From the IMG/VR virus record IMGVR_UViG_3300027826_000013, positions 1 through 38,423 of that record: a stretch of 38,423 nt of DNA; one strand, written 5' to 3'. Within the stretch, counting starts at the first letter, position 1. Each line of letters opens with the position of its first letter. Positions 17,695 to 38,423 of this stretch are shown in pieces. The notes under the pieces are model-generated. The model was not told the DNA's origin and made no database searches. It saw nothing but the letters and a program-made list of their open reading frames with translations. The position numbers and the translations under genes were made by a program. The DNA comes from a virus.

Positions 17695-18042
17695 ATGGCG
17701 GGGCACAACATGGCTTCCAAAATCAGAGAAAAAATTGTGGCGAGCGCGATCCGGTGTTTCGCGTCGAAGGGATACCACGGCTGCTCGACAAAGGAAATCG
17801 CGAGCCGAGCGAAAGTTACCGAGGGGTCGCTGTTTCGCGTCTGCGGATCGAAAGACAGTCTCTTCGCGGAGGCGCTCTCGAACGCGCTCTCTTCCAAAAT
17901 CATGAAGCGCAATCAGACGCGCATCGTGATCTTCGCCTTGCTCGAAGGGAAGCCTCTCGACGTTCCGACAATGAAAGCGATTCGCCGCGCTTCCGTCTCT
18001 CATCTCGTGATTGGCGAAATTCTCAAGCTGACCAATAAGTAA
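17695..18042 (+). CDS. Minimal TetR-type helix-turn-helix regulator
   Basis: A 115-residue protein with the N-terminal TetR DNA-binding helices (IREKIVASAIRCFASKGYHG, CSTKEIASRAKVTEGSLFRV, then KDSLFAEALSNA). Family members are usually about 190-220 residues with a ligand-binding C-terminal domain. Here only about 50 residues follow the helix-turn-helix, so that domain is missing or much reduced. No CI-type repressor was found, so this may be the lysogeny regulator. Starts possible at ATG 17695 or 17710; a TAGAAT at 17691-17696 could be a -10 box, which would favour 17710. The target promoter is likely at 18105-18134. Confidence 0.75.
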   Translation: MAGHNMASKIREKIVASAIRCFASKGYHGCSTKEIASRAKVTEGSLFRVCGSKDSLFAEALSNALSSKIMKRNQTRIVIFALLEGKPLDVPTMKAIRRASVSHLVIGEILKLTNK

Positions 18043-18225: not shown

Positions 18226-18396
18226 GTGTCGGACCGCCAGCCTGGTCTCGTGGATGCGTTACTCGAAGTGGGACGGCAGCGCCAGCAAGTCCTCGCGAAT
18301 CTTCGAAGTGCTCTCGAAAGGAACGACCTCGAGAGTGTATGGCGATGCGTGGAGCAATTGCTCGGGAAGGAGAGTCCGCGTGAAGAAAGTCATTGA
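18226..18396 (+). CDS. Small protein upstream of the serine recombinase
   Basis: A 56-residue ORF from GTG 18226, overlapping the recombinase start by 17 bases. It reads as a plausible helical protein (VSDRQPGLVDALLEVGRQR, then QVLANLRSALERNDLESVW and a charged end). Composition resembles real small phage proteins rather than a shadow frame. The start lacks a strong ribosome site. Short proteins of this sort are, from memory, seen next to such recombinases in related bacteria. It may be a recombinase accessory factor. Confidence 0.45.
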   Translation: MSDRQPGLVDALLEVGRQRQQVLANLRSALERNDLESVWRCVEQLLGKESPREESH

Positions 18397-19942
18397 ACTG
18401 ATCCGCGTCTCGACTCTCGGGCAGGCCGCTGACGACCGGGCCAGCATCCCGGCGCAGCGCGCTGTGAACCGCCGAACAGCTCAAACCTTCGGGCTGACCA
18501 TCACAAAAACAATCGAAATGACGGACGTCTCAGGCGCGGCTGTGCTCCGCACTCCCGAGATGCAGGAACTTCTCCGTCTGATCTCGGCGGAGGAAATCCA
18601 CGGCGTGGTGGTGCGCGAGTTCTCGCGCGTCATGCGCCCAGACAACTTCAGCGACTACATTCTCTTTCAGGCGTTTCAGGACACCGGGACGCTGCTCTAT
18701 CTGCCGGACGGTCCGCTCGACCTCAACACCAAAACGGGAAAACTTGTTGCGGGTCTGCGCGCGATCATCGCAGGGAACGAGCTCTCTGAAATCCGCGAGC
18801 GAATCTGGGTCGCGAAGGAGAGCAACCGGCGCGCGGGGAAGCACTCGCAGAGTCCGATCTGTCTCCCGTTCGGCGTGGGCTATTCGCGCGAGCAGGGTTT
18901 CTTCTACAAACCAGAGGCAGAGCGCGTGCGCGAAGCCTACCGGCTGCTGCTCTCCGGCCAGCACAGTTACGTCGACCTCGCGAAACTCCTCGGCTTCACC
19001 GGGCAGGGCGCGCGGATCACGCTAACAAATCCGATCTACATGGGCTGGCGGGTGTACGATAAAAAACGCGACATGCGTCCGGGAGCGCGGCGCTGCTCCG
19101 CCGACGGACGTCAGGGCGACCGGAAAAAAATCGCTCGCGATCCCGACGAGGTGATCCGCGTGAAGGTCATCGATCCGCCGCTCGTTTCTGAGTCCGATTG
19201 GAAGCGCGCGCAGGAAATCATCGCGACCAAGATTCGCCGCCACTGGCGTCACCGCTCCGGCGTCACTCCCCAATTCACCTACAACGGCTTTCTCATCTGC
19301 TCGGACTGCGAAGGGTCCGTCTACGGCATGAACTGCAGGCGCTTCTACTACGTCTGCTCTCGCCGGATTCGGGACCGCGAACGGTGCAGCGCAGGATACA
19401 TGGGACGCGACCGCCTCGAGCAAAAGCTCGACGGCATGTTCGCGGAGAAATTCACGGACCGGACGTTCATCACCGATCTGCTCCGGGACGTGGAAGCGAA
19501 GTCCGAAACGACGAACGCGCGCGAGCGCATCGCTCGGCTCGAACTCGAGATCAGGAAACTCCGGGAGAAGCGGACGCGGGTACTCGACTCGTTTTTCGAG
19601 GGACTGCTTTCGCGCGCTGAACGGGATCAGCGGCTCGCCGACGTGGACACGCGCATGCGTGCCACCGAGGAAGCTCTCCTGCGAGAGGCTCCCGTGCCAC
19701 GCGTGACGGCGCGCTCGCTCATGACGGCGTTTGCTCCGCTATTCGATTGGCAGTACCTCAACCGGGAAAGCAAGAGGCGGATTCTGGCGGTGACGGTCCC
19801 CGAGATTCACGTCGCGAACTACTCGGTTCGCGGCGTCTCGGTGACCTCACCGAGTTTTTTCAGCGACAACGAAAGCCGCATCCATGCGGGTTCCCTAATC
19901 GCTGAAAAACCGGACCGCATCTTCATCCCGCTAAACCTCTGA
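18380..19942 (+). CDS. Large serine recombinase (phage integrase type)
   Basis: A 520-residue site-specific recombinase. GTG 18380 has GGAAGGAGAG at 18365-18374, so in-frame upstream codons are discarded. The resolvase domain holds the catalytic serine in IRVST (S11) and the arginines in REFSRVMRP (near residues 79-87). The recombinase domain spans about 180-290 (GVGYSREQGFFYKPE, NPIYMGWRVYDKK). A zinc-ribbon region with CSDC and YVCS, C cysteines lies about 306-345, followed by a coiled coil from about 370 to 430. All parts of the family are present. It would integrate or excise the genome by att site recombination. A tyrosine integrase lies 1.4 kb downstream. Confidence 0.93.
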   Translation: MKKVIELIRVSTLGQAADDRASIPAQRAVNRRTAQTFGLTITKTIEMTDVSGAAVLRTPEMQELLRLISAEEIHGVVVREFSRVMRPDNFSDYILFQAFQDTGTLLYLPDGPLDLNTKTGKLVAGLRAIIAGNELSEIRERIWVAKESNRRAGKHSQSPICLPFGVGYSREQGFFYKPEAERVREAYRLLLSGQHSYVDLAKLLGFTGQGARITLTNPIYMGWRVYDKKRDMRPGARRCSADGRQGDRKKIARDPDEVIRVKVIDPPLVSESDWKRAQEIIATKIRRHWRHRSGVTPQFTYNGFLICSDCEGSVYGMNCRRFYYVCSRRIRDRERCSAGYMGRDRLEQKLDGMFAEKFTDRTFITDLLRDVEAKSETTNARERIARLELEIRKLREKRTRVLDSFFEGLLSRAERDQRLADVDTRMRATEEALLREAPVPRVTARSLMTAFAPLFDWQYLNRESKRRILAVTVPEIHVANYSVRGVSVTSPSFFSDNESRIHAGSLIAEKPDRIFIPLNL

Positions 19943-19964
19943 AAAGACGGGAAGGAGACCGGCT

Positions 19965-20240
19965 GTGTCAAAAACGGAAGAGGCGACGAAGTTCGATTCA
20001 TTCGTCCGCGAGTTCGGTGTGGAGGAACTCGCGCGGCGGCTTGGCGTCAACCCGTCTGCGATCTACCACTGGCTCCGCGGGGCAACGTCTCCCCATCCGT
20101 CGAACGCGATCCGTATCCAGGCGCTGGCGAAGCAGCGCGGGGTCACGCTCTCGCTCGACGAAATCTACCAGCATTTTCGCGAGGTCCATAGCGACCGCTA
20201 CACGACCTCTTCACTAAAACTCGAACCCGCGCGCGCCTGA
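19965..20240 (+). CDS. Cro/YdaS-like helix-turn-helix protein
   Basis: A 91-residue protein starting at GTG 19965, with GGAAGGAG 12 bases upstream. The motif FGVEELARRLGVNPSAIYHW is a helix-turn-helix of the Cro/YdaS type, and AIRIQALAKQRGVTLSLDEI completes the fold. The C-terminal tail is basic and flexible. It follows the recombinase closely and may regulate the early genes or balance lysogeny and lysis against the TetR-type protein. Confidence 0.8.
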   Translation: MSKTEEATKFDSFVREFGVEELARRLGVNPSAIYHWLRGATSPHPSNAIRIQALAKQRGVTLSLDEIYQHFREVHSDRYTTSSLKLEPARA

Positions 20241-20268
20241 AGCGCCGCGATCCCCGAAGGAGGGAAGC

Positions 20269-20607
20269 ATGGAAGACGAACAGGTATCTCTTTCGAATTT
20301 GTGCGGCGGCGCGGTCGAAGAGGTTTTTCAGCGCGAGTGGCATCAGGTGCTGAAGAACGTCGCGGACATCAACACCGATGCGGAGGCAAAGAGAAAAATC
20401 ACGCTCGAATTCACCATCGCACCATTCGAGGACCGCTCCGGCGCGCAGGTGACGTTCGCCTGCAAGTCGAAGACGATCCCGGCGGAGGCAGTGAAGGGCA
20501 CGGTATTCCTGCAGCGCAAGGACAACGGCTTTGTGGCGTTTCCGCGCGATCCAAAGCAGGCGCGGCTCTTTGGGAAAGAAGCCGCGGCGAACGACCGCAC
20601 GAACTGA
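20269..20607 (+). CDS. Replication-terminator-like conserved phage protein
   Basis: A 112-residue protein with GAAGGAGGGAAG just before ATG 20269. The arrangement SLSNLCGGAVEEVFQREWHQ, then ADINTDAEAKRKITLEFTIA and a beta half, matches a phage family labelled replication terminator protein (LNTLAGGALxExF...NIxDPNTDxxxKRKLTLTxxFKP). The biochemical role is not established; it is usually found beside DUF2303 or replication genes, as here. Strong resemblance by memory, function unsure. Confidence 0.7.
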   Translation: MEDEQVSLSNLCGGAVEEVFQREWHQVLKNVADINTDAEAKRKITLEFTIAPFEDRSGAQVTFACKSKTIPAEAVKGTVFLQRKDNGFVAFPRDPKQARLFGKEAAANDRTN

Positions 20608-20644
20608 AGCACCGGGCCAAATCTGAGAGGGAAGAAAGGAAAAA

Positions 20645-21388
20645 ATGGACGAGAAATCAATTCAGAAAATTATCGACATCTCTGCTCCGCACACCGTGGA
20701 GCAGGATGGTCTCACTTACGTCGACAAGAACCTGACTCTGCTCGCGCCGAAGGTCGCGCCACTCGTGGCGTGTTCGACGCTGCAGGGTCTGGTGGACCTC
20801 ATCGCAGCCGGCGTCGACGAAATCGACCAGAAGGACGCTCTCCTGGTCATCGACGATCCGCGCAACCTGTCGCTCGTTTCGAACAAGGGCGACGAGTTCG
20901 GTCGCCGGAAAACGTTCGCCTCTTGCTCCTACCCGAAGGAGTGCTCGACGTTCCAGTTCGGAGCGTGGATGAAGCCGGAGTCATTCATCATCGGGGTCCA
21001 GCAGGGTTTCCAGCGCGTCAAAATCGAGAACGACGACGGGAAGTTCGCTCCCGATCTGGACTACGTTCTGGGAATCGCTTCGAAGATCACGGCGTCGAAC
21101 TCCGTCGACCACGAGGACGACGGCATCGCGCAGCGCGTCGCTGTTAAGCAGGGCGTGGCTCTGAAGGCCGAGGCGGTCCTGAAGCCGCTTGTGAACCTCG
21201 CGCCCTACCGGACGTTCGCCGAAATCGATCAGGTGGTTTCGACGTTCGTTTTCCGCGTCCGCATCCAGGGAGAGGAAGTGAACCTCGCTCTGTTCGAAGG
21301 CGACGGCGGTCGCTGGCGGCTCGCCGCGGTCGCTGCGATTAAGGCGTGGCTGTCCGGCAAAGTCGGAACGATCCCGATCATCGGATGA
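20645..21388 (+). CDS. DUF2303-like phage protein
   Basis: A 247-residue protein that starts at ATG 20645 and overlaps the integrase ATG by 4 bases. The N-terminal block (IIDISAPHTVEQDGLTYVDK, then a TLQGLVDLI motif) and the later EFGRRKTFASCSYPKECSTF and VAVKQGVALKAEAVL segments match DUF2303 proteins, found in replication or recombination regions of phages. Molecular role unknown. Coupling to the integrase gene suggests they are made together. Confidence 0.72.
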   Translation: MDEKSIQKIIDISAPHTVEQDGLTYVDKNLTLLAPKVAPLVACSTLQGLVDLIAAGVDEIDQKDALLVIDDPRNLSLVSNKGDEFGRRKTFASCSYPKECSTFQFGAWMKPESFIIGVQQGFQRVKIENDDGKFAPDLDYVLGIASKITASNSVDHEDDGIAQRVAVKQGVALKAEAVLKPLVNLAPYRTFAEIDQVVSTFVFRVRIQGEEVNLALFEGDGGRWRLAAVAAIKAWLSGKVGTIPIIG

Positions 21389-22401
21389 CGACTCGGGGCA
21401 TCTTCGAACGTCCCGCGCGCAGCGGAGTGTGGTGGATTTCGTACTGTGACGCTGAAGGCAAACGTCACCGGGAAAAAATCGGCCGTCGCTCCGCGGCGCT
21501 GGACGCCGTGGTGAAACGCAGGCTCGAAATCGCCGAAGGGCGATTCATTCCGCCGCGCGCAGGAGCTCGCCTGCTTTTTCGCGATCTCGCGCACTCGGCG
21601 CTGCAGAACAAGAAACTCCGGCTTGCTCCGCTCTCCTACCGCACAGACGTCGACCGGCTTAAGCAACTTCTCCCACTCATCGGCAACGTCCCGGCGGACC
21701 GCCTCACTCCCGCCAGGATCGAGGAAACTCTCGCCGTCCTGAAGGCGCGCGTCAGCAGTTCCACGGTCAACCGTTACAGATCCCTCATCGGCTCCATCTA
21801 CTCGTTCGCGCTCCGCGCAGGGAAAATCGCGACCAATCCGGTCTCGCGTGTGAAGCGCTTCAAGGAGAACGAGTCCCGGCTCCGTTTTCTGTCGCCCGAA
21901 GAAGAGAAGGCGATCCGCGAGGCGTTCGTCGCCGACGTCCACGAGTGGGAGTTCGATCTGGCGCTGCAGACCGGAATGCGCCGCGGCGAGCAGTTCGGTC
22001 TGCTCTGGAAGGACGTTAATTGGGAGGCGAAGACTCTCACGGTTCGCGGGAAGACCGGCAGGCGCCACATCAAGGCGAACACGAGCGCCATCGCCGCGCT
22101 CAGAAAATTACACGCCGTCACCGGCGGCACGAAGTTCGTTTGTCCCGACCGCGACGAGAATCACACCCGGGACTGGCGGCGGTGGTTTGAGGAGGCGGTG
22201 AAGAAGGCGAAGGTCGACGACTTCCACTGGCACGATCTCCGGCACACGTTCGCCTCGCGCCTGGTCATGCGAGGCGTCGATATCCGAACGGTGCAGACGC
22301 TGCTCGGCCACAAAAACGTGCAGATGACCATGCGCTACGCGCACCTGTCCGCCGATCACAGCGCGCAGGCGGTCGAGAAAATGAACGAGGAGCCGGAGTG
22401 A
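21385..22401 (+). CDS. Tyrosine integrase
   Basis: A 338-residue tyrosine recombinase. The start ATG 21385 overlaps the previous TGA. Residues 1-55 form an arm-binding-like N-terminal domain (GVWWISYCDAEGKRHREKIG), then a core-binding helical domain at about 62-155, then the catalytic domain. The active site is complete: R199 in TGMRRGE, K223 in RGKTGRR, H283 and R286 in HWHDLRHTF, H309 in LLGHK, and Y318 in MRYAHL. It catalyses integration at a host attB with an integration host factor. It is the second integrase of this genome. An attP was not identified with certainty. Confidence 0.94.
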   Translation: MTTRGIFERPARSGVWWISYCDAEGKRHREKIGRRSAALDAVVKRRLEIAEGRFIPPRAGARLLFRDLAHSALQNKKLRLAPLSYRTDVDRLKQLLPLIGNVPADRLTPARIEETLAVLKARVSSSTVNRYRSLIGSIYSFALRAGKIATNPVSRVKRFKENESRLRFLSPEEEKAIREAFVADVHEWEFDLALQTGMRRGEQFGLLWKDVNWEAKTLTVRGKTGRRHIKANTSAIAALRKLHAVTGGTKFVCPDRDENHTRDWRRWFEEAVKKAKVDDFHWHDLRHTFASRLVMRGVDIRTVQTLLGHKNVQMTMRYAHLSADHSAQAVEKMNEEPE

Positions 22402-22438: not shown

Positions 22439-22774
22439 ATGGCACCGAAGAACGGGGCGGCGTCGGAACCGTCCAGGCTCTCAATCCGGCTCGAGGATCG
22501 GCTCTCGAACTATGCGGCGATCCTGAAGCAGCTGGACGTGGTGCTCGCGGAACTGGAGCCGGACGGTCTCGTGGCGATCGATGTCCGGGATAGGTTCGAG
22601 CGCCTGGTGGTCGCCGAGCGAATGCGTGTCGCCAACCTGAGCCGGACCGTGAAGATGGCGTCCGGCAACCCGGCTCTACCGCCAATTACCAAGCCGAACG
22701 GGTCCGAAAAAACCGCGAAAAACTCTGGCACCGGAAGTGGCACTCAGAACGGCGCTGCTTTTTCGCGCCTGTAA
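22439..22774 (+). CDS. Hypothetical protein after the integrase
   Basis: A 111-residue protein, ATG 22439, with GAAGGAGGCAAC upstream. The middle is helical (RLEDRLSNYAAILKQLDVVL, ERLVVAERMRVANLSRTVKM), the end is low complexity (Gly, Ser, Thr). No family recognised. It is separated from the GIY-YIG gene by 85 bases that hold a strong palindrome. Confidence 0.65.
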   Translation: MAPKNGAASEPSRLSIRLEDRLSNYAAILKQLDVVLAELEPDGLVAIDVRDRFERLVVAERMRVANLSRTVKMASGNPALPPITKPNGSEKTAKNSGTGSGTQNGAAFSRL

Positions 22775-22814
22775 CCCTCGCGTGTTCACGGGGTTAGGGG
22801 CGCAAAGTACAACC

Positions 22815-22835
22815 CACAGGACTACTTGTCCTGTG
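22815..22835. promoter_or_regulatory. 8 bp inverted repeat with TTTT, operator or terminator
   Basis: CACAGGAC (22815-22822) pairs perfectly with GTCCTGTG (22828-22835) across a 5-base loop, followed by TTTTG. It lies in the 85-base gap after the integrase-distal gene. It could end transcription from upstream, or be an operator or an attachment core. The short stem and mixed T run leave this open. Confidence 0.5.
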
Positions 22836-22859: not shown

Positions 22860-23324
22860 TTGGAGCGCATTAGGCACGGGCAAATCGTGAAGAGGGAGAC
22901 CCTCGCGCCAATCGAATATCCGCCTCTTGTGGCTGCTCTGGACGCCGAGGGAGCCGCTCACAGGCGATGGGTCTACATGCTCGTCGATCCGCGCGAACTC
23001 AATCTGGCGCGCTATATCGGGTGTTCCATCGTGGTCGGCGAGCGGTACCGCAAGCACATCATCGAGGCTCGGAACCCTCACGGCTACTCCAACCCGCGAA
23101 AGGTTCTATTCATCCAGCAGCTCCTCTGTGACGGCGTGTTCCCCGAAATGCTCCTCATCGAGGAACTGGCACCGGACGCCGATTTTGTGGCACGTGAGGC
23201 CTATTGGATCGAAAAATTCCGCTCGCCAGATCTCACGAACTTCGACCGGCCAGCTCCCACCTGCAGCTACGAGAAGGCCGATTCGAATCCCGGAGCGGTT
23301 CACTTTTTCAGGAGGTCTCAATGA
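22860..23324 (+). CDS. GIY-YIG domain nuclease
   Basis: A 154-residue protein starting at TTG 22860 with GGAGG at 22851-22855. The pattern RRWVYMLVDPRELNLARYIG (about 35-54), then ERYRKHIIEA (61-70) and ARE-YWIEKF (111-120) matches the GIY-YIG nuclease fold: Y39, Y52-I53-G54, R62/R64, and E113 are the usual catalytic or structural residues. Such small phage proteins may act in DNA repair, homing or host DNA degradation. Its stop overlaps the next ATG by 4 bases. Confidence 0.78.
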   Translation: MERIRHGQIVKRETLAPIEYPPLVAALDAEGAAHRRWVYMLVDPRELNLARYIGCSIVVGERYRKHIIEARNPHGYSNPRKVLFIQQLLCDGVFPEMLLIEELAPDADFVAREAYWIEKFRSPDLTNFDRPAPTCSYEKADSNPGAVHFFRRSQ

Positions 23325-29332: not shown

Positions 29333-29718
29333 CCAGCTACTACCGACGTCATCGAGCGCAACAGATTGAAAACGCACTACGTTGGCAGAGAAAAAATAAG
29401 AAGCGGGTCCGCGAATTGGCTCTCGCTTACTACTACCGGAACAGAAAAGCAGCGCTCCGACGTCGTCGGCGTTACGCGCAGACTGCGGCAGGCAGACGCG
29501 CTTCTCTCAGGGCCGCGAAAAAAGCGCGGCGGCGATTTCCGGGGAAGTACCGCGCGCGCCGCAAACTCTACAACGCGATTCGGCGCGGAGAGATCAAGCG
29601 GCGTCCCTGCAGGGTTTGCGGTCGCAAGGCGCAAGCGCATCACCCGGATTACCGGAAGCCGTTCAAGGTTCGTTGGCTCTGCAGGATGCACCACATGCGA
29701 GAGGAAAATCATCGATGA
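29329..29718 (+). CDS. HNH-like CxxC phage protein, second copy
   Basis: A 129-residue very basic protein from GTG 29329. The last 45 residues hold RPCRVCGRKAQAHHPDYRKP and WLCRMHHMREENHR, the same zinc-ribbon-plus-HH pattern as the 27299 gene, though the N-terminal part differs. The strong Arg/Lys content suggests DNA or RNA binding. It overlaps the ParB-like ORF by 4 bases. Confidence 0.72.
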   Translation: MTSYYRRHRAQQIENALRWQRKNKKRVRELALAYYYRNRKAALRRRRRYAQTAAGRRASLRAAKKARRRFPGKYRARRKLYNAIRRGEIKRRPCRVCGRKAQAHHPDYRKPFKVRWLCRMHHMREENHR

Positions 29719-29861
29719 AAATCCAGATGTGGACCGTCGACAAGGTCACACCGTACAAAAAAAATCCGCGACGCAACGAGGAGGCTGTCGAAAAAGTAGC
29801 GCTCTCGCTGAAATCGTTCGGTTGGAAGCAACCCATCGTCGTGGACAAGGACGGCGCGTGA
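29715..29861 (+). CDS. ParB-type N-terminal segment, split from the methyltransferase
   Basis: A 48-residue ORF from ATG 29715, with AGAGGAAAA upstream. It reads VDKVTPYKKNPRRNEEAVEK and SFGWKQPIVVDKDGA, the start of a ParB/Srx domain found at the front of phage DNA methyltransferases. Its TGA at 29859-29861 overlaps GTG 29858, where the next ORF carries on with VIIVGHTRLLAALRLGMKEV, the rest of the same domain. An intact gene would read straight through; here it is split, either by a 2-base insertion or 1-base loss or by design. Confidence 0.65.
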   Translation: MKIQMWTVDKVTPYKKNPRRNEEAVEKVALSLKSFGWKQPIVVDKDGA

Positions 29862-31027
29862 TCATCGTGGGCCACACGAGACTGCTCGCCGCGCTCCGGC
29901 TCGGAATGAAGGAGGTGCCCGTCCTGGTCGCGACCGATCTTTCACCGGCACAGGTGAAGGCTTACCGCATCGCCGACAACAGGGTTCACGAAGAGAGCGA
30001 GTGGGACGAGGAACTTCTCGCGCTCGAACTCGGTGATCTCGCAAAGCTCGGCTTCGATCTGACAGCTACCGGGTTTGACGCGGACGAGCTCTCGGCTCTG
30101 CTCGAGCAGGAGAAGGGCGGTTTGCTCCCGGATGCGGAAGAGGACGCGGTCCCGGAAACGCCGTCGAAGGTGACGACGTATCCCGGCGAGGTGATCGTGC
30201 TCGGCAAGCACCGGCTGATCTGTGGCGACTCCACCGATCCGTTTGTCATCGAAAAACTGTTCTCCGGGGACAAGGCCGACGCCGTTTTCACCGATCCGCC
30301 GTACAACGTGAACTACGAAGGCACCGCCGGGAAAATCAAAAACGACAACATGGAGGATTCGAAATTCCGCGGCTTCCTGCTCCGCGCCTACAGCGTCATG
30401 TTCCGCGTGGTGAAACCAGGCGGCGCGGTTTACGTCTGCCACGCCGACACCGAGGGGCTGAATTTTCGGAGCGCGTTCGTCGAAGCAGGTTTCAAACTCT
30501 CGGGCTGTCTCATCTGGTGCAAGGACGCGATGGTCCTCGGGCGCTCGGACTACCAGTGGCAGCACGAGCCGATTCTTTACGGGTGGAAGCCGGAAGCGCC
30601 GCACAAGTGGTACGGGGATCGGAAGTCCACGACCATCGCGGAGTTCATGCTTGAGGCGCCAGTCACCAAAGTGGAGGACGGCGTCTACCGGCTCCGGCTC
30701 GGCGATCAGTGGTACCAGATCCGCGGCGAGAAGATCACCGTGGAAGAACTCCAGACAACCGTGGTGCGCGTCCCGCGCCCGAAACGGAATGAGGATCATC
30801 CGACGATGAAGCCGGTCGCGCTGATCGAGAAGATGCTTCGCAACTCGACGAAAAAGAACGACCTTGTGTTCGATCCGTTCGGCGGCTCCGGCTCGACTCT
30901 GATCACCGCGGAAAAACTCGGCCGGACCGCCTACCTGTGCGAGCTCGAGCCGAAGTTCTGCGACGTCATCGCCATGCGGTGGGAGCAGGCTACGGGAAAG
31001 AAAGCAAAGAGGGAGACACGCCAATGA
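29858..31027 (+). CDS. DNA methyltransferase (beta class) with ParB domain remainder
   Basis: A 389-residue ORF from GTG 29858. It begins with the second half of a ParB domain (residues 1-40, GHTRLLAALRLGMKEVPVLV), then a helical linker, and a methyltransferase domain with DPPY at 146-149 and FDPFGGSGST at about 337-346. Motif order (DPPY first, FxGxG last) is that of beta-class N6-adenine or N4-cytosine enzymes. It would mark the phage genome against host restriction. The split start suggests termination-reinitiation or a frameshift. Stop overlaps the next ATG. Confidence 0.85.
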   Translation: MIIVGHTRLLAALRLGMKEVPVLVATDLSPAQVKAYRIADNRVHEESEWDEELLALELGDLAKLGFDLTATGFDADELSALLEQEKGGLLPDAEEDAVPETPSKVTTYPGEVIVLGKHRLICGDSTDPFVIEKLFSGDKADAVFTDPPYNVNYEGTAGKIKNDNMEDSKFRGFLLRAYSVMFRVVKPGGAVYVCHADTEGLNFRSAFVEAGFKLSGCLIWCKDAMVLGRSDYQWQHEPILYGWKPEAPHKWYGDRKSTTIAEFMLEAPVTKVEDGVYRLRLGDQWYQIRGEKITVEELQTTVVRVPRPKRNEDHPTMKPVALIEKMLRNSTKKNDLVFDPFGGSGSTLITAEKLGRTAYLCELEPKFCDVIAMRWEQATGKKAKRETRQ

Positions 31028-36915: not shown

Positions 36916-38423
36916 AAAGCAAGACGGAAGAAGTTCGCAAGCTCGGGGACAAACTCCCGATGCTGATGCGCGAGTTTGAAGTTCTCGAAATGGTTCCCGT
37001 CGCCAAGAGAGAGAAAAAAGTTTTGTCGCCGGAGGAAGTCGCGGCGCGCGCGCTCCGCAAGGCCGAGCACGAACGGAAGAAAGCCGCCGGCGAGCCGGTC
37101 GACGATGACGAGGACACCGAGGACGACGAGTCCGGGGAGAACGCCGCCGACAATAGCGACGAGTCGAAAGGCCGCGACGAGGACCGTTTCGCGATCTCCA
37201 TCTCTTCCGAGTTCCCGGTCGCGCGGTGGTTTGGAAACGAAATCCTCGACCACTCTTCGGGGTCCGTCGACCTCTCCCGCGCCAAGCGCGGACTGAGTTT
37301 TCTCGACTCGCACGATGCGAAGGCAGTGATCGGCATCGTGGAGAAGGTGAAGGTTGGCGACGATAAAAAACTTCGCGGTGAAGTGCGGTTCAGTCGGAGT
37401 GCTCCGGCGCAGCAAATCAAAACGGACATTCAGGACGGGATTCGGCGCTTCATCTCTGTTGGCTACATGGTGAACGAGTACACGCTGGAAAAGTCCTCGA
37501 AAGAGGAAGGCGACACGTACCGCGCCACCAAGTGGATGCCGATGGAGGCGAGTTCGGTGGGCGTCCCCGCCGATCCGACCGTGGGAAATGACCGCGCTGT
37601 TGGGGACGCGACATACCCGGTCACAGTTCGAGGCAGTGTCACTCCGGCTAACGAGCCGAATCTTAAGGAGGTCAAAGTGGAACCAGTTACGGCAGCACAG
37701 CAAGTCACCGATTCCCGGACCGCCGCGGCTGAAATCATTCGGCTCGGCAAGCATCACGGGATCGATCAGGAGCGCGTCGCAGAGTTCGTTGCGAACGGGA
37801 AATCCGTCGACGAATTCTCGCGGTTTGCTCTCGACGAAATCTCCAAGCGCGGCGGGAAACCGCTCGCTCAACCCGGAGCCGAAGGCGAGGACCGTCTGGA
37901 CCTCACCGAGCGCGAACAGAAGCAATACAACCTCGCGCGCGGGATCATGGCGTCGGTCCGCAACATGGAAGCGCCCGAGAAGCGCGAAAACTCTTTCGAG
38001 ATGGAAATCTCGGATGAAATCGCGAAGTCGTACAAGGGCGCGCGTCACGGCGGCATTTTGGTGCCGTGGAGCATCCGCCATGCATGGACTCCCGAACTGC
38101 AGAAGAAGTTCGGTCCGGTCCTGAAGCAGCGCGCGGGTCTCGACTCCGCGACGTCCGGCGCTGGCGCTGAACTGAAATTCACCGAGCCTGGTGAATTCAT
38201 CCAGTTCCTGTACAACCAGATGCGCGTGAAGGAACTCGGCGCGCGCACCATCGCGGGTCTCCGCGACAACGTGTCCTATCCGAAGCAGACCGGCAACGCG
38301 TCCGGCTCGTGGGTGGGTGAAAATCCCGGCTCCGATGTTGCGGACTCCGCGCTGACGCTCGGCTCCATCGCAAGCTCTCCGAAGACCTACCAGTCCTCGA
38401 CGAGCTATTCGCGTCAATTGCTC
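36912..38423 (+). CDS. Prohead protease fused to major capsid protein (5' part)
   Basis: ATG 36912 overlaps the portal stop. The first 230 residues are an HK97-type prohead protease, with H134 in FLDSHDAKAVIG, S182 in RFISVGYMVNEY and E212 in MEASSVGVPADP as the catalytic group. An acidic linker (residues 61-91) lies before it. A delta-like helical region at 260-330 precedes the capsid part (from about 330, LTEREQKQYNLARGI). The ORF is open at the window end and continues in frame at position 1 to 807. Fusion of protease and capsid in one chain means self-cleavage during head maturation. Confidence 0.92.
   Translation, partial: MKSKTEEVRKLGDKLPMLMREFEVLEMVPVAKREKKVLSPEEVAARALRKAEHERKKAAGEPVDDDEDTEDDESGENAADNSDESKGRDEDRFAISISSEFPVARWFGNEILDHSSGSVDLSRAKRGLSFLDSHDAKAVIGIVEKVKVGDDKKLRGEVRFSRSAPAQQIKTDIQDGIRRFISVGYMVNEYTLEKSSKEEGDTYRATKWMPMEASSVGVPADPTVGNDRAVGDATYPVTVRGSVTPANEPNLKEVKVEPVTAAQQVTDSRTAAAEIIRLGKHHGIDQERVAEFVANGKSVDEFSRFALDEISKRGGKPLAQPGAEGEDRLDLTEREQKQYNLARGIMASVRNMEAPEKRENSFEMEISDEIAKSYKGARHGGILVPWSIRHAWTPELQKKFGPVLKQRAGLDSATSGAGAELKFTEPGEFIQFLYNQMRVKELGARTIAGLRDNVSYPKQTGNASGSWVGENPGSDVADSALTLGSIASSPKTYQSSTSYSRQLL
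38226..38423. repeat. Terminal direct repeat, right copy
   Basis: Right-hand copy of the 198-base end repeat. The single mismatch turns a capsid lysine (AAG, left copy) into asparagine (AAC, right copy), so the reads came from a mixed population or one copy has an error. Confidence 0.95.

Follow-up and report, generated by a model that had tools for sequence, protein, structure and literature searches.

A large serine integrase and a resident tyrosine recombinase in one phage genome: probably two independent site-specific recombination systems

Results

We consider the whole of the viral contig IMGVR_UViG_3300027826_000013 of IMG/VR (38,423 bp, hereafter the window), which comes from a virus of a soil bacterium. 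Head, tail, lysis and packaging genes are all found in this phage genome. The two ends of the record (1-198 and 38226-38423) overlap over 198 bp with one mismatch, within the major capsid gene. This terminal overlap indicates that the genome is closed, with a length of about 38,225 bp, so that the two recombinase genes described below are carried on one molecule. The mismatch (position 72, G/C) alters one capsid residue and represents either two population variants or an assembly error. Among named phages, the search for DNA relatives returns one short unrelated match only. Next to the terminase genes, positions 29366-31027 encode a ParB-like domain fused to a DNA methyltransferase, which is among the most conserved proteins of the phage family.

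All the genes at the recombinase locus lie on the plus strand. The first recombinase is a large serine integrase (LSR, 18380-19942) of 520 amino acids, starting with GTG at 18380 and ending with a stop at 19942. It combines a Resolvase domain containing the catalytic serine with a Recombinase domain and a Zn-ribbon, the arrangement of large serine integrases, and the three Pfam models (PF00239, PF07508, PF13408) all score above cut-off; the integrase family phrog_95 matches with E=1e-55. All of its matches in named phages are below 26% identity and none is found in the PDB at E 0.01, while the AlphaFold model is of low confidence with the tail of the protein unplaced. A TetR-N-type regulator (17695-18042; PF00440, E=8e-13) travels with the LSR, as it also adjoins the LSR of four other genomes (G002, G787, G795, G797).

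The second recombinase is reached through three genes: an HTH gene of the Cro/repressor-like type (19965-20240; PF01381, E=1e-6), which opens the resident operon, a phrog_997 "replication terminator" protein (20269-20607; E=2e-21) and a phrog_1029 protein (20645-21388; E=3e-48). The tyrosine recombinase itself (Yrec, 21385-22401; 338 amino acids) is identified by its Pfam match (PF00589, E=5e-31), by alignment and by its position in the tree. Its best start is the ATG at 21385, where the homologues begin and where the start overlaps the preceding stop as ATGA. The protein contains core-binding and catalytic domains with the R-K-H-R-H-Y set, and scores 108 bits with the Phage_integrase model (cut-off 27). 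It falls outside XerC and XerD, with 108.6 bits for XerC (cut-off 335) and 86.1 for XerD (cut-off 330). We find no tRNA-type attP near the resident Yrec; where tRNA 3' ends do occur, they adjoin a different tyrosine integrase in the LSR position (G788) or lie close to the termini of other elements.

The preliminary description of this DNA, made from the sequence alone, called both enzymes full length with complete active sites and placed them 1.4 kb apart, and these observations hold. Both genes are complete and their domain models exceed the Pfam cut-offs. S11 and REFSR are kept in all the LSR relatives, and the Yrec residue numbers (R199, K223, H283, R286, H309, Y318) agree with the start at 21385. 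The 1.4 kb between the two genes contains the three genes named above.

The same pair, which the preliminary description proposed to look for in related genomes, is present in other contigs and in one bacterial genome in the order LSR-HTH-997-1029-Yrec. The carriers are four contigs (G001, G002, G031, G795) and three prophages (G005, G006, G032), with the lysis genes preceding the LSR; the exception is G002, in which both phrog genes are absent between the HTH gene and Yrec. At least eight diverged phages thus have the pair, at 57-69% identity to the window for the LSR and 54-72% for Yrec. For the most similar full-length pairs we obtain a dN/dS of about 0.2-0.37 (LSR) and 0.26-0.34 (Yrec), values which indicate that both genes are under purifying selection. 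By the same comparisons the pair is old and neither gene is a recent insertion.

For the census of the family we search IMG/VR with Yrec, and also with the terminase to avoid bias, and count the recombinases in whole records. The LSR and the resident Yrec occur together in the window and seven others. Another tyrosine integrase can occupy the LSR position (a slot Yrec), and it accompanies the resident Yrec in G004, G011 and G788, as well as in G012, a near copy of G011. Probably G016 belongs here too, judged by eye, with its slot Yrec cut by the contig end. Six genomes, complete or nearly so, have the resident Yrec as their only recombinase (G013, G014, G015, G019, G026, G782). The LSR alone is found in G787, which is complete, and in G797, a partial record; the slot Yrec alone in G785, G786 and G791; and neither recombinase in G789 and G794.

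When these states are placed on the TerL tree, the presence of the resident Yrec requires 2 changes, compared to a mean of 9.1 for shuffled labels (0/500 shuffles as low). The LSR label requires 5 changes, a value reached by 120/500 shuffles, and the slot content (LSR, another tyrosine integrase, nothing) requires 8 changes over three states. In the recombinase tree the resident Yrecs cluster together (92/99), including two from 15-kb elements, and apart from the slot Yrecs. By the census and the trees, the two positions differ in their history: one holds a resident gene, the other is a slot whose content is exchanged. Yrec is a long-standing resident and ends a conserved operon.

The two 15-kb elements, L098 (G008, 15459 bp) and L059 (G010, 15826 bp), have tape-measure, small terminase and HTH genes in common with these phages and resemble either phage satellites or relatives that have undergone strong rearrangement. 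Each has a resident-type Yrec directly behind its own copy of the DNA element described below, and in G008 direct repeats formed by tRNA 3' ends lie close to each end. Three unrelated phages (G017, G018, G021) each have two tyrosine recombinases of the Yrec family.

We turn to the question of which att site is used. The 3' end of the LSR gene contains a palindrome of about 54 bp (19856-19909) with arms at 19856-19881 and 19884-19909 and a central dinucleotide CC at 19882-19883. Its centre lies 60 bp ahead of the LSR stop in the window; in 7/7 unintegrated LSR genes this distance is 60 or 63 bp, down to 48% protein identity. The junctions of the three integrated relatives (G005, G006, G032) are at this same place. 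One of these, G032, is a Terriglobia MAG contig (JAIQEV010000001.1) holding an integrated family member. One border of this prophage is the LSR 3' end and the other lies about 100 bp upstream of the HTH gene; a comM gene is split by it, with one half on each flank, and ATACCCGCACGG is common to the junctions. The other two are viral records with short host flanks. Both split an aldo/keto reductase gene at identical codons (SPLG), with one half at each end, and they do so in opposite orientation. The split host genes are assigned by Pfam as Aldo_ket_red (G005, G006) and Mg_chelatase/ComM (G032).

The orientation of the latter two prophages is as the site predicts. For serine integrases it is an established rule that the central dinucleotide sets the orientation. 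The dinucleotide at the centre of the palindrome is CC in G005 and GG in G006, and opposite orientations are therefore expected at one attB, matching the observation. The prophage junctions, which the preliminary description suggested as a check, thus fall at the LSR palindrome in 3/3 integrated relatives. In all three the resident Yrec is intact and away from the junctions. The anatomy of these prophages establishes the LSR as the lysogeny enzyme of the relatives; from the homology of both enzyme and site, the LSR of the window would use its palindromic attP in the same way.

Beyond the palindrome remain the last LSR codons (PDRIFIPLNL) and the stop (19910-19942, plus strand), which are lost upon integration in the relatives. 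In the 13 copies compared, the protein sequence of the tail is conserved while the synonymous sites vary, with the consensus R-[ILVM]-[FWY]-[IL]-P-L-N-L and one exception (SSIFIPLLL in G002). The prophages G005, G006 and G032 have an LSR without the tail, and an orphan tail lies at the opposite end of the prophage. Integration has rewritten the LSR gene in these relatives. The tail may be functionally important.

We also find a DNA element linked to Yrec. In the window it spans 22726-22835 and consists of two TGGCAC repeats, about 90 bp and a dyad with a 7-bp centre. Its parts are the arm-like direct repeats TGGCACC-N5-TGGCACT (22726-22744, plus strand) and the core-like dyad CACAGGAC-TACTT-GTCCTGTG (22815-22835); the dyad emerges from comparison of the non-coding DNA, which revealed the form CACAGGAC-N5-GTCCTGTG. 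The general form of the element is TGGCACC-N5-TGGCAC(C/T), with the dyad and its 7-bp centre beginning 88-101 bp further on. The gene right after it in the window (22860-23324, plus strand) is GIY-YIG-like, below the Pfam cut-off, and is a different protein in each relative.

A composite search finds the element in 21 carriers of this type of Yrec and in 0/12 relatives without the gene, compared to an expectation of about 0.1 per shuffled genome; two carriers also have weaker extra matches. The relatives without the gene are at the same time the more distant ones, so within the family common descent accounts for some of this pattern. This explanation does not apply to the unrelated phages that have the element (G020, G021, G025, G028); the carriers also include the 15-kb elements G008 and G010. 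The dyad sequence varies with the Yrec subtype while TGGCAC is constant: in G023 and G026 the arms differ (CCACGGTTG...CAACCGTGG) with the spacing unchanged. The distance from element to Yrec ranges over 0.3-2.8 kb across the carriers, and no clear element is seen in G013, G014, G017, G018 and G022.

A scan of the whole of IMG/VR with the dyad alone finds 10 contigs, 9 of which have this type of Yrec (8 known carriers and 1 new). The new one is an unrelated contig (L255/G806), with a Yrec of 56% identity located 409 bp from a full element with TGGCAC repeats. The tenth (L258) has no such Yrec gene in the stretch examined, and a second scan with the arm repeats adds zero new carriers. Taken together, constant direct repeats and a variable inverted-repeat core make up a candidate attP anatomy.

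Integration at the element was sought in host genomes. A pattern search of 399 host-class genomes finds no prophage junction in the element, with a single family prophage among all the genomes covered. A TerL search of about 400 phylum and about 400 class genomes for prophages with Yrec only finds, besides distant terminases, only the known LSR prophage. The element is intact inside the LSR prophages.

Discussion

We think it probable that the window encodes two independent site-specific recombination systems, of which the LSR integrates the phage and Yrec is likely an older and complete integrase with its own attP. The LSR would form the prophage by recombining its palindromic attP, which lies within the 3' end of the LSR gene, with an attB in a protein-coding gene of the host; integration would swap the last 20 or so LSR codons for host sequence and excision would restore them. 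Use of this system is observed in the relatives. Yrec, encoded in an operon of regulation and replication genes, may act on its own site made of direct arm repeats and a dyad core, as its co-occurrence with the element suggests, in alternative integration or in multimer resolution. Several complete relatives have Yrec as their sole recombinase; where the slot holds an LSR or another integrase, Yrec would form a second, optional system.

Of the roles that the preliminary description offered for the two enzymes, two att sites is the one supported, with the LSR attP given by the prophage junctions of the relatives and a separate att-like element tied to Yrec. A division of labour between integration and excision is not supported, given the complete genome with an LSR and no Yrec (G787) and the six relatives in which Yrec stands alone.

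The role of Yrec can be read differently. It could be a resolution enzyme with no part in integration of the phage, using a dif/cer-like dyad to resolve the multimers that arise in replication or recombination. The symmetry of the dyad is nearly perfect and resembles that of resolution sites, Yrec takes its place in the operon after phrog_997, and its site is intact and unused within three prophages made by another enzyme. In the tRNA-flanked G008 it is internal and not terminal, with other Yrecs near the ends. The arm-like direct repeats at fixed spacing and the core arms varying between relatives, however, are more in keeping with an attP; the six Yrec-only relatives, complete or nearly so, encode no other recombinase, and the related Yrec of the unrelated phage G806 is the only one in its record. 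We regard resolution as the sole role as unlikely, while giving it real weight.

Another reading separates the element from Yrec, as a promoter-leader or a protein-binding site of the variable gene, with the recombinase perhaps idle. In most family members a ribosome-binding site and a start codon come directly after the element, and a hairpin appears in the RNA folds. Against this, the unrelated G020 and G028 have the repeats and the dyad with no start codon after them, the element is confined to genomes with this type of Yrec, a dyad scan using DNA only yielded a new Yrec carrier, and the purifying selection on Yrec speaks against an idle enzyme. We consider such a regulatory origin improbable.

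That the LSR is a recent arrival replacing a decaying tyrosine integrase is highly improbable: the TerL tree shows frequent changes of slot state and relatives with just one of the two genes exist, but Yrec is intact, has its catalytic motifs and a dN/dS near 0.3 in the LSR carriers, and the pair is found in diverged lineages and one bacterial chromosome. What stands of the suggested swap in progress is a long-term exchangeable LSR slot; a recent event does not agree with a pair under purifying selection in at least eight diverged phages. The preliminary description also named, as evidence against its proposal, homologous phages with only one gene, the other sitting in a recent insertion. Single-gene relatives do exist for both genes, but neither gene lies in such an insertion.

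A serine and tyrosine pair is already known; what is new is the self-truncating LSR gene and the candidate element of the resident recombinase. Gordonia phage Utz (PMC5559632) and Staphylococcus phage TEM126 (PMC6507118) each have one Int-Y and one Int-S. They resemble the window in having each catalytic type once in a temperate phage, and in Utz the two genes (gp31 and gp33) are close together. In both phages the roles of the pair are described as unclear (for TEM126 in PMC6507118), and for neither are the att sites of the pair resolved. In the family studied here, by comparison, LSR use is evident from the junctions of relatives, and Yrec keeps a constant place in its operon and is linked to an att-like element. 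Earlier phages with one enzyme of each chemistry were noted without knowing which enzyme was in use; here the junctions, the census and the linked DNA elements allow a resident recombinase to be told apart from a lysogeny slot with exchangeable content, and assign to each a testable site.

The LSR shares with phiC31, Bxb1 and SV1 the Resolvase, Recombinase, Zn ribbon and coiled coil, a palindromic attP beside int, a protein-coding attB and an orientation set by the dinucleotide. It differs in that the int reading frame itself contains attP, always about equally far ahead of the stop, and in the conserved tail that integration removes; SV1 has its attP downstream of int (PMC4068962). Integration-dependent immunity, known from mycobacteriophages such as BPs (PMC4557955) and some Gordonia phages (PMC5559632) with attP inside the repressor gene, is similar in having attP in a coding gene and a C-terminus altered by integration. 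There a repressor is truncated and the integrase is of the tyrosine type, whereas here attP lies in the integrase gene and the serine integrase itself is truncated, which places the window outside that class. Yrec and its element recall lambda-type integrases and XerCD/dif, with SAM-like and catalytic domains, direct repeats and an inverted-repeat core with a centre of about 7 bp; they differ in that the element is a candidate site, 0.3-2.8 kb from the gene, with an unusually symmetric core.

A limited search of the open literature finds no serine integrase gene that truncates itself or has attP inside its own gene. An integrase gene that loses its tail suggests a simple way to make integrase activity dependent on the integrated state. 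It is conceivable, and we put it forward tentatively as something short of an even chance, that the tail is a functional switch (of stability or directionality) cut off at integration and restored at excision, so that the integrase of the lysogen would differ from that of the free phage, with the resident recombinase and its own att site as a backup. For Acidobacteriota, the analysis also contributes serine integrases whose attP and coding attB sites are predicted.

Two features of the DNA around the tail can be recorded separately. Small variable genes lie between the LSR attP/tail and the HTH gene in three loci (L003 11640-11890, L007 180-795, L008 480-725). In G800 (L247 and L248), the first 1.15 kb or so, phage-oriented, contains three tandem cassettes of an attP half plus an LSR tail (NRIYIPLNL, NRIYIPLNL and DRIFIPLNL), which are separated by small genes and located upstream of the HTH gene.
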